DNA of 64,000 nt from Bacteroidota bacterium (lineage in GTDB: Bacteria > Bacteroidota > Bacteroidia > UBA8524): positions 62,001 through 126,000 of the forward strand of contig SBGR01000025.1 in NCBI GenBank assembly GCA_006226545.1, in the 5' to 3' direction. The position numbers and the translations under genes are program-made. Of the stretch, positions 23,719-30,800 are shown one piece after another. Position 1 is the stretch's first letter. Each line of letters starts with the position of its first letter. Below the pieces are notes generated by a model. It had not been told where the DNA came from. It made no database searches and was given only the letters and a program-made list of their open reading frames with translations.

Positions 23719-24303
23719 TTAAGCCCTGCTTTTTAAAACCGCTTCAATAGCACTTAAGCTCAAGTTTTTTGCTTTGAGCAAAATCAAGAAATGGTAGAGC
23801 AGGTCTGCGGCTTCGTTTTTAAATAGGTCCTCATTGCTGTCCTTGGCTTCAATCACCAATTCAACCGCTTCTTCGCCCACCTTCTGAGCCATCTTATTGA
23901 TGCCTTGCCGGTAGAGTTTATTGGTATACGAATCGGGGTTATTGGAATCAATGCGCCGGTGAATCGTCTCTTCTATAGCATAAATAAAACCTTTGGCGGT
24001 TTCATCTCTAAAGCAAGATCGAGAACCGGTATGGCAGGTTGGACCTTGCGGATTGGCTAAAATCAAAAGTGTGTCGGCGTCGCAGTCTACCTGAATATCC
24101 ACTAACTCCAAGGTATTACCGGAGCTTTCGCCTTTTTTCCAGAGGCGTTGTTTAGAGCGACTGTAAAACGTAACCTGTTTGCTTTCTTGCGTCCTTTGCA
24201 AGGCTTCGGCATTCATGTAACCTAACATCAATACCTGCAAGGTTTGGGCATCTTGGACAATGGCCGGTACGAGGCCATCGCCTTTGCTAAAATCTAATTT
24301 CAT
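23719..24303 (-). CDS. hisIE: Phosphoribosyl-AMP cyclohydrolase / phosphoribosyl-ATP diphosphatase
   Basis: A fused enzyme of 194 residues for the second and third steps of histidine synthesis. The HisI part (about 1-110) has the zinc site [20 protein letters not shown] and the ending GSRSCF. The HisE part (about 115-194) has [20 protein letters not shown] and [11 protein letters not shown]. Its start overlaps the hisF stop (ATGA). It is the last gene of the his operon; the hairpin at its stop lacks a U tract. Confidence 0.95.
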
Positions 24304-25052
24304 CGGATGGGAATGTTTTGCGTGTTTAAGTATTTTTTTAGCGATGGAATGGGCAACTCATTGTAGTGAAAGATGCTGGCTGCTAAGCCTGCCGTCGCTT
24401 TGGTTTGTGTAAATAGCGATGCAAAATCCTCGGCTTTGCCTGCACCGCCGGAGGCAATAACCGGAACCTGAACGGCTTCGCAAATGGCTTGTGTGATCTC
24501 CAATGCAAATCCGTTTTTTGTGCCGTCGTGGTTCATGGAGGTTAACAGTATTTCACCCGCCCCAAGTTCCACCGCATACCGTGCCCAATCCGCAGTTTGG
24601 AGCGAAGTCTCCTCCCGGCCGCCTTTAACAAACACCTTCCAATCATTGCCATTGAATTGTGTATCGATAGCCAAAACCAAACACTGCGAGCCAAATTCCG
24701 AAGCTATTTCGCTCAGCAATTCAGGTCTCCGAACTGCAGCAGAATTGACCGATACTTTATCGGCACCGGCCCAAATCAAGCGACGTACTTCTTCCACCGA
24801 TTGAATGCCGCCACCTACGGTAAACGGAATATCAATCTCAGCTGCGATACGTTCCACCAGTTCCAGCAGCGTGGTCCGGTTTTCTACGGTAGCGGTGATG
24901 TCTAGAAAGACCAGCTCATCGGCGCCTTCAGCTGCGTATTTTTTAGCGAGTTCTACCGGGTCGCCGGCATCGCGGATTCCTTCAAAATTGACTCCCTTAA
25001 CGGTGCGACCGTTGCGGATATCCAAGCAGGGAATGATGCGTTTCTTCAACAT
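24300..25052 (-). CDS. hisF: Imidazole glycerol phosphate synthase, cyclase subunit
   Basis: A (beta-alpha)8 barrel of 250 residues that uses ammonia from HisH to make imidazole glycerol phosphate and AICAR. The start [19 protein letters not shown] carries the first catalytic Asp; the second is in [17 protein letters not shown] and [12 protein letters not shown] are the phosphate-binding loops. The gene overlaps hisA by seven bases and hisIE by four. Confidence 0.96.
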
Positions 25053-25759
25053 AAGTCACTCAGTTCTTTTAAGGTGATACGTCCTTCGTAAAAGGCTTTG
25101 CCTACGATTGCACCTTGGCACCCGAGTTCTTTCAAAGCCACTAAATCGGAAACAGAGGCTACGCCACCGCTGGCAATGAGGGCAACCCTGGTTTTTGTTA
25201 GAATCTCTTGGTAAAGCGAAAGCGATGGCCCACCCAACATGCCGTCTTTAGCGATGTCGGTTGAGATAACCTCGCTTATCCCTTCCGCTTCGAATGATTG
25301 GATAAAGTCAATCACATCGGTATCAGAACCCTGTAGCCAACCTTGGGTGGCGATTCTTCGGTTACGGCAGTCGGCGCCCAGTATAATTTTAGCTGGTCCG
25401 TAGCGATCCAGCCAAGTCAAGAACAAGGCTTTGTTTTGTATAGCGATGCTGCCTCCCGTAATCTGTGAGGCCCCGCATTCAAAGGCAATCGCAACATCCT
25501 TATCCGATTTTAAGCCTCCACCGAAATCGATTTTCAATTGGGTTTTACTGGCGATTTGCTCCAATACTTGGTGGTTCACAATATGACTCGATTTGGCTCC
25601 ATCTAAGTCTACCAGATGCAAATAGCGAATGCCGCTGCCTTCAAAGGCTTTGGCCACTTCTAAGGGGTCTTCGTTGTATACTTTCCGGGTGGCATAATCG
25701 CCTTGGCTTAAGCGAACACATCGGCCTCCCAGTATGTCGATGGCGGGAATAATTTTCAT
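25046..25759 (-). CDS. hisA: ProFAR isomerase
   Basis: The 237-residue barrel enzyme that isomerises ProFAR to [25 protein letters not shown] holds the catalytic Asp, and [17 protein letters not shown] contains the second one in [21 protein letters not shown] is the C-terminal phosphate site. It starts inside the stop of hisH (ATGA) and overlaps hisF at its own end, so the three genes are translationally linked. Confidence 0.96.
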
Positions 25760-26334
25760 AATGCTAAAAAGTTTTTAAGGATGAGGTTTCCAATGTCTGC
25801 CGACTTCTCCGGATGGAATTGGGTAGCATAAAAATTGGCTTTTTCGAGTATGGCGCTGAAAGGCGTGATGTAGTGGCAAACCGCTGAAGTTTGCGCCCCG
25901 AGCTCAGCATAGTAGCTGTGCACATAGTATACGTTAGCCGTAATATCCAGTCCTTCACATAGAGCGCTGTTGAGCGATTCAAAATTGTTCCAGCCCATGT
26001 GCGGCACGATGGCCTCACCACGGAATCGCAGTACTTTATGCGGAAAGATGCCCAGGCAGTCTACATGGCCTTCTTCGCTCGATTCACACATCAATTGCAG
26101 CCCGAGGCAAATGCCTAAAACAGGTTGTGTAAGCGATTTCACCACTTGGTCTAAACCCTTGGCTTTCAGCTGTTGCATAGCCGATTTAGCCTCGCCCACA
26201 CCGGGGAAAATGACTTTTTCAGCCGCTCGGATTGTAGCGGGATCGTCGGTTAAAACCGATTCGTAGCCCAGGCGTGTTAAGGCATTCTGTACCGAGCGAA
26301 TATTGCCGGCATTGTAGTTTATAATCGCTATCAT
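25756..26334 (-). CDS. hisH: Imidazole glycerol phosphate synthase, glutaminase subunit
   Basis: A class I glutamine amidotransferase of 192 residues that supplies ammonia to HisF. The triad is visible: Cys in [18 protein letters not shown], His and Glu in [12 protein letters not shown]. The start [18 protein letters not shown] is typical. Its ATG overlaps the hisB stop by four bases. Confidence 0.96.
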
Positions 26335-27422
26335 AAAAACCCTTTGGTACTTGGAATGGAATAATCAGAACCGCGCTTTACGGCCATTTTGATGGCCTTG
26401 GCAAAGGCTTTAAAAACCGACTCAATTTTGTGGTGTTCGTTAGCGCCTTCTGCCTTGATGTTCAAATTGCATTTGGCGCCATCGCTAAACGATTTAAAAA
26501 AGTGAAAGAACATTTCGGTAGGCATTTCACCGATTTTCTCACGTTTGAATTCAGCGTCCCAAACCAACCAGGGCCGGCCTCCAAAGTCGATGGCCACTTG
26601 TGCCAGGCAATCATCCATGGGCAGCAGAAAGCCGTATCGCTCAATGCCTTTTTTACTCCCAAGTGCTTCCGTAAAGGTTTCACCCAAACAAATCGCTACG
26701 TCTTCAATGCTGTGGTGCTCGTCAATTTCCAAATCGCCCTTCACCTGAACAGACAAATCGATGCCGCCGTGTTTGGCCAATTGCTCCAGCATGTGATCAA
26801 AGAATCCCAATCCCGTATCAAATTGACTCTTTCCTGAACCGTCAAGGTTGAGGCTGATGCGGATATCGGTTTCATTGGTTGAGCGCTCCTTTAGCGCTTG
26901 CCTAGGCCTCGATTTTAAAAACCGGTAAATCGTTTCCCAACTTCGGGTAGTCAAGGCCGTTTCTAGCTCACAATCATCACCTATAAAAATACCTTGTGCT
27001 CCGAGGTTTTGAGCGAGCTGAACATCGGTTAGACGGTCGCCAATAACATACGAATGGGCTAAGTCGTAGTTGCCGTAAAGGTATTTGTTCAGCAATGCGG
27101 TGCCCGGTTTTCGGGTGGGAGCTTGTTCTTCGGGAAAGGTTTTATCGATTATAATTTCACTGAACACAATTCCTTCGTTGGCTAAGGCTTGGATGATTTT
27201 TTGGTGAGCAGGCCAGAAGGTTTCTTCCGGAAATAGTGCCGTGCCCAGGCCGTCTTGGTTGCTCACCATCACCAGTTCATACTCCAGTTCTCGGGCTATT
27301 TTCGATAGTCCACTAAAAACGCCGGGATAGAATTCGAGCTTTTCCAAACTATCCAGCTGGTAATCAATAGGCGGTTCAATTACCAAGGTGCCGTCGCGGT
27401 CAATAAACAGTACTTTCTTCAT
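26331..27422 (-). CDS. hisB: Histidinol-phosphatase / imidazole glycerol phosphate dehydratase
   Basis: A fused enzyme of 363 residues. The N-terminal HAD phosphatase (about 1-165) starts [20 protein letters not shown] with the nucleophile Asp motif and contains [13 protein letters not shown]. The C-terminal dehydratase (about 170-363) starts after a basic linker and has the manganese motifs [31 protein letters not shown] and [21 protein letters not shown] two codons upstream is in frame, but the ATG is preferred. It overlaps the end of hisC by 23 bases. Confidence 0.96.
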
Positions 27423-28449
27423 TTTCAATTTGCTTTAGGGCATTCAGGAGTATTTCATTTTCGGTGGCGCTGCCAATGCTGATGCGAATGCAATTGGGCA
27501 CCTCTTTGTGTCGGTTTCGCACAATGATGTTCCGCTCAACCAGTTGGGCGTATAAGCGATTGGCATCCGTCACTTCCACCAAGAGAAAATTGGCATTGGA
27601 GGGGTATACCTTACGCACCAAGGGCAAGAGGGCTAACTCGCGCTCTAGCTTTCTTTTTTCATTTTTTATCTGTTCCAGCTGTTGAGCGAAGCTTTCTTCG
27701 TTGCGTAAGGCGGCCAGGACAGTTTGCTGGTTCAGCTCGCTCACGTTATAAGGCGGCTTAACTTTGTTTAGCACAGCGATGATTTCTTCACTGGCAAAGG
27801 CAAAGCCTACGCGCGCAGCGGCTAGTCCGCGGGCCTTACTCATGGTTTGGGTAATTACCAGATTTGGAAATTGAGGCAAAAGCTCGAGCCATGAACCTTG
27901 TTCGCTGAAGTCGGCGTAGGCCTCATCCAATACCACGATGCCTTGGGCTGCCTGCACCACCTCGCGAATTTTAGCTTGAGTAAAGGCATTGCCACTGGGA
28001 TTATTGGGTGAGCAAATGAAGGTGAGCTTAATTGGCTTTTGCTTCAACAGTTCGATGGCCGCTTCGCTGTCTAGGTCAAAAGAATCGGTTAAGGGGATTG
28101 TCACCAATTCCACGTCGTTGATGGCAGCGGAGACGGCGTACATGCCATAGCTGGGCGTAAAGCCGAGTGCTTTATCTGTCCCGGGAATGCAAAACACCCG
28201 AAACAACAGGTCGATGATCTCATCGCTGCCGTTGCCAACCAAAATCTGATTCGGGTTAATGCCCTTTTGTTTAGCGAGTTCAGCCTTGAGCGCTGTTTGG
28301 TAAGGGTCCGGATAGCGATTCCATTGGCCGTAGGGATTTTCATTGGCATCCAGAAATACGCCTTCGGCCGAACTGTATTCATTTCTTGCACTGGAATAGG
28401 GCTGCAAGGCGTTGATATTCGTCCGGATTAATTTTTTTAGATCAAACAT
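27400..28449 (-). CDS. hisC: Histidinol-phosphate aminotransferase
   Basis: A PLP aminotransferase of 349 residues. The N-terminal part has [18 protein letters not shown], the middle has the cofactor blocks [13 protein letters not shown] and [11 protein letters not shown], and the Schiff-base lysine is in [17 protein letters not shown]. The final Arg region is [13 protein letters not shown]. Start at the ATG of [11 protein letters not shown]; a TTG two codons earlier is in frame. It overlaps hisD by eight bases. Confidence 0.96.
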
Positions 28450-29731
28450 CAGCAAGGCGTTTTAGGCGGAGGCTCACCGCGTTTTTGTGTGCAACTAATT
28501 CTTCGGCGTCGGCCATGATTTCAATAGCCGGCCCAATACGTTTTAGCCCTTCCGGTGAGAGTTTCTGAAAGGTGATTTTCCGAACAAAGCTATCGAGCGA
28601 AACACCGCTATAGCTGCGGGCAAATCCGTTGGTAGGCAAGGTGTGATTGGTTCCGCTGGCATAATCGCCCGCACTTTCGCAGCTGTAATTTCCTACGAAT
28701 ACCGAACCCGCATTTTGAACAAGGTGCAGGTAGACTTCGGCTTGCGCTGAAGCGATAATCAAGTGTTCCGGAGCATACAGGTTACTCAACTCAAAACACT
28801 GATCCATAGTAGAAAGTAAAATGGCCCTGCTGCTAGCCAAAGCCTGGGCTGCCAGTTCTTTGCGAGGCAATGCTTGAAGTTGTTTTTCGAGCTCAAGGTT
28901 TACTTGGTTGAGCACTTCGGCAGACGGACTTAACAGCAGCACCTGACTGTCTGCTCCGTGTTCGGCTTGAGAGAGGAGGTCGGCCGCTACAAAGGCCGGA
29001 TCACAGGTTTCGTCGGCAATCACCAAAACCTCACTTGGTCCGGCCGGCATATCGATGGCAATGCCCATCTGCTGCACCCGCTCTTTGGCCTTGGTTACAA
29101 ACTGATTGCCCGGTCCGAAGATTTTGTAAACGGCAGGAATGCTTTCTGTGCCAAAAGCCATCGCTGCAATGGCTTGTGCGCCGCCCACTTTGTAAACGTT
29201 TTGAATGCCTAGCAGTTTGGCGGTATACAAGATGGCCGGGTGAATGCTTCCGTTTTTTGCAGGCGGAGTACATAAGCTGATTTCCGGACAAGCTGCTAGT
29301 TTAGCCGGTATTCCGAGCATCAATACAGTAGAGAAGAGGGGAGCTGAACCTCCGGGAATATACAGTCCTACTTTTTCGATCGCCTTGCTCTCACGCCAGC
29401 AGACTACGCCAGGCGTGGTTTCGATGGGGTTCACGATTTCTTTTTGGCTGCTGTGGAAACGTTCAATATTGCCTTTGGCTACTTCGATGGCGGCCTTCAG
29501 TTCGCTAGAAACAGCTTGTTCTGCAGCGGCAAACTCAGCATCACTCACCTTGAGATTGGGAAGTTCCAGATTATCGAATTTTTTCGCGTAAGCGTGCAAG
29601 GCACGATCGCCGTTTAGCTTCACTTGATTGAGTATTTCAAGTACTACAGCATCCAGTTTTTCGCTATCTAAGGCGGGCCTTTTGCAGAGTTCGGCCCAGC
29701 TCGATCTTATGGGATTTTCTATCGTTTTCAT
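28442..29731 (-). CDS. hisD: Histidinol dehydrogenase
   Basis: A 429-residue zinc and NAD enzyme for the last two oxidations to histidine. Marks are VGLYIPGGSAPLFSTVLM, GPGNQFVTKAKERVQ, AADLLSQAEHGADSQVLL with the metal-binding His, and NLYAPEHLIIAS with the catalytic Glu-His. Its ATG shares a base with the hisG stop (TAATG), another coupled junction. Confidence 0.97.
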   Translation of the reverse strand: MKTIENPIRSSWAELCKRPALDSEKLDAVVLEILNQVKLNGDRALHAYAKKFDNLELPNLKVSDAEFAAAEQAVSSELKAAIEVAKGNIERFHSSQKEIVNPIETTPGVVCWRESKAIEKVGLYIPGGSAPLFSTVLMLGIPAKLAACPEISLCTPPAKNGSIHPAILYTAKLLGIQNVYKVGGAQAIAAMAFGTESIPAVYKIFGPGNQFVTKAKERVQQMGIAIDMPAGPSEVLVIADETCDPAFVAADLLSQAEHGADSQVLLLSPSAEVLNQVNLELEKQLQALPRKELAAQALASSRAILLSTMDQCFELSNLYAPEHLIIASAQAEVYLHLVQNAGSVFVGNYSCESAGDYASGTNHTLPTNGFARSYSGVSLDSFVRKITFQKLSPEGLKRIGPAIEIMADAEELVAHKNAVSLRLKRLADV

Positions 29732-30588
29732 TACAAAACCATTTTATCAATTGGAACGATGAGGATTCCTTCCGCACCGGCTGCTTTGAGCTCATCAATC
29801 ATCTCCCAGAACTTATCTTCATCAATAACCGAGTGCAGAGAGCTCCAGCCCGGTTCGGCTAGAGGAAGCAGGGTGGGCGACTTCAAAACCGGCAACATGG
29901 CGCTCACCTCTTGAATTTTTTCATTGGGCACATTCATCAAAATGTATTTGGTGTTTTTTGCCCTAAGCACCGCTTCAATGCGGAAGATGAGCTTGTTGAG
30001 AATGGCTTGTTTTTCAGGGCTAAGCGAGCGGGTGGAAGCGAGAACGGCTTCGGATTTCAGAATTATTTCCGACTCCTTAAGGCCATTCTTAAAAAGGGTA
30101 GAGCCTGTACTTACAATATCGCAGATGGCATCGGCCAAGCCAATATTGGGGGCAATCTCCACGGAGCCAGATATCTTGTGAATTTCGGCTGAGACCCCGT
30201 TGGCATCGAGGAATTTTTTAACCGTATTGGGATAGGAAGTAGCGATGCGTTTGTTGTTGAAATAAGTGAGTCCGGAGGCCTTGACCCCTTTGGGAACGGC
30301 CAACGAAACCCGGCATTTGGAGAAACCCAGCTTACGCACCACATCCACCTGCTTCTCTTGTTCAATCAAGAGGTTTTCTCCCACAATGGCGATATCGGCC
30401 ACGCCGTCTTCCAGGTATTGCGGAATATCCGAATTACGCAGGTACAGGATCTCCAGAGGGAAATTGGGTACAGCCACCTTCAGCTGATCTCGGCCATTAT
30501 CGACCTTGATGCCGCAGGATTTCAGCAGCGCTAGCGAGTCTTCGTTGAGTCGCCCATTTTTTTGAATGGCAATTTTCAGTTTACTCAT
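29731..30588 (-). CDS. hisG: ATP phosphoribosyltransferase, long form
   Basis: The first enzyme of histidine synthesis, 285 residues, the long form with a C-terminal ACT-like domain that senses histidine (about 210-285: YILMNVPNEKIQEVSAMLPV, EGILIVPIDKM). The catalytic part contains LKIAIQKNGRLNEDSLALL, DIAIVGENLL and the PRPP loop DAICDIVSTGSTLFKNGL. It therefore combines feedback inhibition with the attenuator located in its leader. It is the first structural gene of the operon. Confidence 0.96.
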   Translation of the reverse strand: MSKLKIAIQKNGRLNEDSLALLKSCGIKVDNGRDQLKVAVPNFPLEILYLRNSDIPQYLEDGVADIAIVGENLLIEQEKQVDVVRKLGFSKCRVSLAVPKGVKASGLTYFNNKRIATSYPNTVKKFLDANGVSAEIHKISGSVEIAPNIGLADAICDIVSTGSTLFKNGLKESEIILKSEAVLASTRSLSPEKQAILNKLIFRIEAVLRAKNTKYILMNVPNEKIQEVSAMLPVLKSPTLLPLAEPGWSSLHSVIDEDKFWEMIDELKAAGAEGILIVPIDKMVL

Positions 30589-30621
30589 GTTTAATTTTTA
30601 AACGCCTGAGCAAACCATAGG

Positions 30622-30657
30622 GCAAAAGAAAACCCGCCTGATTTACTCAGACGGGTT
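30622..30657 (-). terminator. Attenuator terminator of the his operon
   Basis: On the reverse strand AACCCGTCTGA pairs with TCAGGCGGGTT (11 pairs, one G-U) around a five-base loop and is followed by TTCTTTTG. It lies between the leader peptide and hisG, the right place for premature termination when histidine is plentiful. Confidence 0.9.
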
Positions 30658-30708
30658 GCGATAATATATTGGTCAATCTACACTATACCATTATCAGCAC
30701 GCCTGAGC
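30645..30708 (-). promoter_or_regulatory. Antiterminator pairing of the his attenuator
   Basis: The leader segment GCTCAGGCG (30700-30708), which encodes Ala-Gln-Ala after the His codons, can pair over nine bases (seven Watson-Crick, two G-U) with CGTCTGAGT (30645-30653), the 5' arm of the terminator. A ribosome stalled at the early His codons leaves this segment free, so the terminator cannot form. A ribosome that reaches the stop codon covers it. A further copy of CTCAGGCG lies at 30603-30610, just before hisG. Confidence 0.75.
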
Positions 30709-30750
30709 GCTTGAATGATAATGATGATGATGTAGCTGATTTAAAATCAT
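30694..30750 (-). CDS. hisL: Histidine leader peptide
   Basis: An 18-codon frame translates to MILNQLHHHHYHSSAQAC and stops with TGA. Codons 7-10 and 12 are all CAT, with Tyr between them, so five of six consecutive codons read His. Such a run just upstream of an intrinsic terminator and a histidine operon is the mark of ribosome-mediated attenuation. The ATG lies about ten bases after the expected transcription start. The peptide itself is not expected to have a function beyond measuring charged tRNA-His. Confidence 0.92.
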   Translation of the reverse strand: MILNQLHHHHYHSSAQAC

Positions 30751-30767
30751 GGGGTGTTTTCCGGGAG

Positions 30768-30800
30768 CAAATGTAGAAAGTTTTTAGAAAGACCATCAAA
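30768..30800 (-). promoter_or_regulatory. Promoter of the his operon
   Basis: On the reverse strand TTTG (30797-30800) and TACATTTG (30768-30775) are 21 bases apart. This is a full match to the Bacteroidota sigma-A type consensus TTTG-N19-21-TAnnTTTG. Transcription would start near 30761, just before the leader peptide. Confidence 0.8.

Follow-up and report, generated by a model that had tools for sequence, protein, structure and literature searches.

The hisG upstream region on the minus strand of the window (the whole 64,000-nucleotide stretch of Bacteroidota DNA analysed here) constitutes, with high probability, a transcription attenuator of the his operon that is worked by the ribosome and has the geometry of the trp type, combined with an additional strand close to hisG (strand 5) for which a translational role is proposed. 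The operon is complete (hisGDCBHAFIE) and the attenuator parts precede its first gene. Judging by the comparative evidence, his attenuation of the classical ribosome-mediated type occurs widely in Bacteroidota, beyond the textbook groups, and the exact parts are given in Table 1.

Table 1. Parts of the his leader and the operon downstream of it (positions in the window; colons denote pairing between numbered strands)
Feature	Position	Strand	Remarks
Predicted Bacteroidota-type promoter, TTTG-N21-TACATTTG	30768-30800	minus	pattern located in the sequence
Promoter boxes	TTTG 30797-30800; TACATTTG 30768-30775	minus	21-base spacer
Leader peptide ORF, MILNQLHHHHYHSSAQAC	30694-30750	minus	18 codons; His at 7-10 and 12
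Regulatory codons 7-12, CAU CAU CAU CAU UAU CAU	30715-30732	minus	coincide with the on/off boundary of the model
1:2 (protector) hairpin	30673-30739	minus	predicted fold; leader codons pair with post-stop sequence
Strand 2, antiterminator, GCUCAGGCG	30700-30708	minus	codons Ala15-Gln16-Ala17
Strand 3, terminator 5' arm and loop	30639-30653	minus	common to pairings 2:3, 3:4 and 3:5
Intrinsic terminator (3:4)	30631-30657	minus	11 pairs, loop GUAAA (5); U-rich tail to about 30622
Strand 5, UGGUUUGCUCAGGCG	30603-30617	minus	hisG 5'UTR; pairs with strand 3 over 15 contiguous positions
Strand 6, hisG start, AUGAGUAAACU	30578-30588	minus	10 pairs possible with strand 5; the start codon would be enclosed
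hisG	29731-30588	minus	first operon gene; Pfam HisG and HisG_C (PF01634, PF08029)
hisD, hisC, hisB (bifunctional), hisH, hisA, hisF, hisIE	23719-29731	minus	after hisG

The promoter was found with both boxes exactly as the initial annotation had placed it, with 17 bases between TACATTTG and the leader ATG (30750), and a TAnnTT(T/C/G)G box was present 7-45 nt 5' of the leader ATG in most hisG upstream regions of relatives. The leader peptide upstream of hisG, with its length and the positions of its His codons, was confirmed to the base; between the promoter and hisG there is a short ORF with consecutive codons for the amino acid that the operon makes. It was the sole ORF with at least four His in six codons among the 977 ATG-started short ORFs of the window, and the leader RNA folded 4.8 sd better than its own shuffles. 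The intrinsic terminator described before hisG was also confirmed, between the leader ORF and the first gene and with all of its pairs, and was picked up by a scan at a site where shuffles yield 0.2 hits. The nine pairs said to join its 5' arm to the Ala-Gln-Ala codons proved correct as well, GCUCAGGCG being complementary to CGUCUGAGU with two G-U pairs among the nine. A biased codon choice was observed in the leaders of the window and its relatives, in which CAU accounted for 400 of 446 His codons; the his genes of the window favour CAC (26 vs 8). The preference for CAU in leaders is perhaps due to pairing of this codon with the AUG-rich strand 3' of the stop codon.

The His run, whose conservation in relatives had been proposed as support for the attenuator, was kept. 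A first set of relatives was built from the hisG genes of 25 genomes and 80 named genomes, mostly Flavobacteriales, and gave 105 usable upstream regions. A His-rich leader ORF was detected in 99 of these and was followed by a terminator in most; 66 of the 99 leaders were of the window type (...QLHHHHFHTCSQA...). The laboratory species Flavobacterium johnsoniae (L073) is among the carriers of this leader. In a wider sample of the phylum, comprising 70 loci (3 of them duplicating genomes of the first set), the leader was present at 46 of the 54 loci with HisG at least 42% identical and at one of the 16 loci with diverged HisG, a weak case. When only ATG starts were counted, at least four His in eight codons were found in 118 of 146 real upstream regions and in one of 438 dinucleotide shuffles, the 146 being regions already found to hold a leader and the shuffles being made from such leader-holding regions. 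No His-rich leader was found upstream of hisG at five loci (L011, L022, L026, L037 and L054), and at L022 a terminator-like hairpin nevertheless precedes hisG.

Several observations concerned the distribution and the variants of the element. No HisG match was obtained in any of the four genomes that share the family of the window genome (G001-G004), and the window genome holds a complete operon, which suggests that the his operon was patchily lost or gained within this family. In one other family (L142, L143, L147, L152, L161, L162, L166 and L135), hisG was preceded by a longer and His-richer ORF, often with a GTG start, e.g., MRKNSLHIIYHHGVHHAHHGHHHISVQ. No intrinsic terminator was found between that ORF and hisG, and the ORF was followed by a C/U-rich, G-poor unpaired stretch; this family possibly uses a Rho-dependent or translational His attenuator. 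Another family (L119, L125, L126 and L148) had leaders of the H-L-H-L-H-H-R-R type, in which a compact GC-rich hairpin spans the stop codon and the terminator-like stem consists of A-U pairs only.

The Ala-Gln-Ala segment of the leader is conserved as RNA and not as peptide. The bases (C)UCARGCG were kept, with GCG as the Ala codon in 62 of the 66 window-type leaders, and their partner was CGUYUGAG in the terminator 5' arm and loop. Among 53 non-redundant sequences, strand 2 matched strand 3 in 92% of cells (at most 48% in slid controls) and the terminator was paired in 99.3% of cells. Covariation, which the initial annotation had named as possible support, was detected in both stems: double changes were found in 16 cells of 3:4 and, for 2:3, in L032 and L067, where the C-G pair of the loop has become U-A through changes in both partners. 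In the alignment of relatives, the arm C was seen only together with the codon G. The antiterminator complementarity had a mean z of -3.2 in 65 'QA' leaders, a z of -2.3 in 32 leaders of unrelated sequence and of -3.4 in 30 more; these divergent leaders, among them those of Chryseobacterium and Chitinophaga, retained complementarity near the stop codon. The conserved antiterminator is mutually exclusive with the terminator.

The effect of ribosome position was evaluated in an equilibrium model of the nascent RNA, in which 31 bases around the P site were blocked and RNA polymerase stood at the terminator loop. When the A site was at codons 7-10, 9.9 nt of strand 3 were paired with strand 2; this number fell to 5.7 when the A site was at His12, to 1.3 when it was at codon 13 and to 0.4 when it had reached the stop codon. 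Without a ribosome, 2:3 pairing was intermediate. The modelled switch occurred at the very point where the His run ends, and the order of ribosome positions was identical in 64 + 32 relatives. In silico, the antiterminator was thus free with the ribosome stalled at the regulatory codons and was not free with the ribosome at the stop codon.

A strand of the hisG 5'UTR, missed in the initial annotation together with the 1:2 hairpin, was found to be complementary to strand 3. In the window, the 3:5 pairing comprises 15 bp (-22.1 kcal/mol, z -8.6) and extends from the terminator 5' arm through the loop; UCAGGCG occurs three times in the leader, in the antiterminator, in the terminator 3' arm and in the hisG 5'UTR, the last copy being the one from which the 15 pairs extend. 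Strand 5 tracked the terminator loop in relatives, GAGUACA occurring with UGUACUC, GAGCACA with UGUGCUC, GAGACAAUC with GAUUGUUUC and GAGAAAUC with GAUUUCUC, and double changes were detected between strand 5 and the terminator-loop positions. Cognate 3:5 pairs exceeded non-cognate ones at z -12.25 (p < 1/5000) in a permutation over 53 sequences that, like the shuffles used throughout, took no account of phylogeny, and this advantage persisted when exchanges were restricted to genes with the same hisG start. Outside the discovery set, 7 of 11 leaders, including one with a new loop, GUAUA, showed the pairing at p < 1/400. The co-variation shows that the predicted 3:5 pairing co-evolved with the terminator arm and loop. 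Two other readings of strand 5 were rejected: a protein-binding DNA repeat, because the arms change sequence together, and chance, because of the 12-sd advantage of cognate over non-cognate pairs. Strand 5 accompanied leaders of the Flavobacteriales type and was not found in the other groups sampled.

The end of strand 5 lay 11-18 nt upstream of the hisG AUG in most sequences and 21-31 nt upstream of it in the genus Flavobacterium. The hisG start (AUGAGUAAA or AUGAGUAC) was able to pair with strand 5 in the window and in roughly one in three of the relatives tested, and conservation of the 5:6 pairing was limited to some relatives (16 of 53 at p <= 0.01). Strand 5 can pair with both strand 3 and the hisG start, and strand 3 therefore mimics the hisG start. 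For the read-through mRNA, the predicted energy was -63.6 for 3:4 together with 5:6, with the start codon in a hairpin, and -60.7 for 3:5, with the start free. Equilibrium folding of this mRNA revealed no ribosome-dependent change in 3:5 or 5:6. As the equilibrium favours 3:4 and 5:6 whatever the ribosome does, a role of strand 5 would have to be kinetic.

The initial annotation had viewed the leader as a minimal two-state switch, made of antiterminator and terminator only, with the ribosome as the sole agent that covers or frees strand 2. Two elements of this view were supported: the comparative data agree with the peptide coding sequence being itself the antiterminator strand, and, taken with the ribosome-position model, with stalling on His codons freeing this strand and translation to the stop codon covering it. 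The two-state form as such was not supported, and we consider it highly improbable. In its favour, coverage of strand 2 at the stop codon suffices in the ribosome model, and 1:2 pairing is weak in a few relatives, e.g., L007, L044 and L103. Against it stands a long 1:2 hairpin that per-sequence folds predict for the window and for nearly all relatives and that brings the number of alternative hairpins to three. The GCG of strand 2 lies in the apical stem of this hairpin (UUGC:GCGA in relatives), whose stability relative to shuffled post-stop sequence reached z = -2.9 in the window and a mean of -2.5 in 65 relatives; z was below -1.64 in 80% of QA leaders. Such folds and shuffles replaced an RNAalifold consensus for the leader part of the alignment, where no consensus fold was obtained because the register of the hairpin varies between lineages. 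The leader codons also pair 3' of the stop codon, which makes the element an ordinary 1:2 / 2:3 / 3:4 attenuator. A chance arrangement of the parts without regulatory function is contradicted by the leader conservation, the pairing counts and the shuffle controls, and its probability is negligible.

Strand 5 may add a second, translation-level lock on hisG. Because the equilibrium is independent of the ribosome and lineages without 5:6 retain 3:5 (the latter is kept and 5:6 is not conserved in L053, L088 and L094), this lock is something that we infer; moreover, the gap of 21-31 nt in Flavobacterium is far for a block of initiation by strand 5. The pairing could serve another purpose, either opening the terminator hairpin in the read-through mRNA or setting the stability or processing of that mRNA. 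Such a reading, unlikely but not strongly so, agrees with the fact that, among the pairings of strand 5, 3:5 is conserved most widely and is kept also where 5:6 is absent; its reach through the loop fits a strand that uses the loop as a toehold for invading the terminator hairpin. However, there is no known reason for the read-through mRNA to lose this hairpin, and 3:4 remains more stable in most folds. Action in trans would be conceivable too, with the loop and arm of the terminated leader RNA binding strand 5 of his mRNAs and shutting off their translation: the loop and arm are complementary to the hisG 5'UTR, and terminated riboswitch leaders of Sinorhizobium were reported to accumulate as sRNAs (PMC9373788). 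Yet each mRNA starting at the promoter has its own strand 3 in cis, which is expected to win, and the trans reading appears improbable.

In the preferred reading, that of a trp-type attenuator with strand 5 as a translational addition, a ribosome translating the leader under plentiful histidine would reach the stop codon and cover strand 2, and without a ribosome the 1:2 hairpin would hold this strand. With strand 2 unavailable, strand 3 would pair with strand 4 and transcription would end before hisG. When histidyl-tRNA is scarce, the ribosome would stall at codons 7-10, 2:3 would form, the terminator would be blocked and the operon would be transcribed. In read-through transcripts, strand 5 would compete for strand 3 and, in the window species, for the hisG start codon. 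In transcripts leaking past a formed 3:4 hairpin in rich medium, strand 5 would most likely close the hisG start; where 2:3 keeps strand 3 from strand 4, strand 3 could capture strand 5 before the hisG start has been transcribed, leaving the start open. The element could then be a coupled transcription-and-translation attenuator of Flavobacteriales, in which the captor of strand 3 (strand 2, 4 or 5) decides both whether polymerase continues and whether the hisG start opens, a leak-proof double lock operated by one stalled ribosome; we put this forward tentatively, as a proposal that falls somewhat short of probable. If true, it would explain how a trp-type leader, which is leaky, can give tight control of an operon, and the role of strand 5 is open to testing by point mutations.

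The assumption that, this case aside, attenuators of this kind belong to Proteobacteria is outdated. Naville and Gautheret listed leader peptides as known from Proteobacteria and Actinobacteria only, in addition to their own Firmicutes case (PMC2965389), and a Bacteroid-trp motif is listed in PMC2864571. In 2021, a structured 5' transcribed element of hisG, conserved in Flavobacteriaceae and not in Rfam, was reported for Flavobacterium psychrophilum, and leader-peptide attenuation was proposed for amino-acid operons; the peptide, the alternative stems and strand 5 are not described in the main text of that paper (PMC9723704). That element is very probably the same as the one in the window. No description of strand 5 was found in the openly accessible literature that was covered. 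Within Rfam, the leader scored 21.7 bits (E 0.17) with the RF00514 His_leader model, below the gathering cut-off of 49, and neither a T-box nor another cis-regulatory RNA matched at gathering score in the whole window.

The trp leader of Bacillus subtilis, controlled by TRAP, combines a terminator with a hairpin hiding the trpE ribosome site. It resembles the double control proposed here in joining termination to the hiding of a start site in read-through RNA, but it is protein-mediated, has no leader peptide and is an unrelated RNA. The element resembles the E. coli trp attenuator in that three hairpins are alternatives to one another, the regulatory codons lie in strand 1 and the position of the ribosome decides (PMC1183508); it differs in using His and not Trp codons, in having strand 2 inside the leader ORF and in carrying the extra strand 5 by the start of the first gene. 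The enteric his attenuator (RF00514) has the same run of His codons, the same terminator position before hisG and the same sensed signal, whereas the element in the window lacks the extra hairpin between the pause hairpin and the terminator, which in the enteric leader is thought to reduce basal read-through (PMC1183508). The switch part is of a known kind, and strand 5 is an apparently new addition to it.
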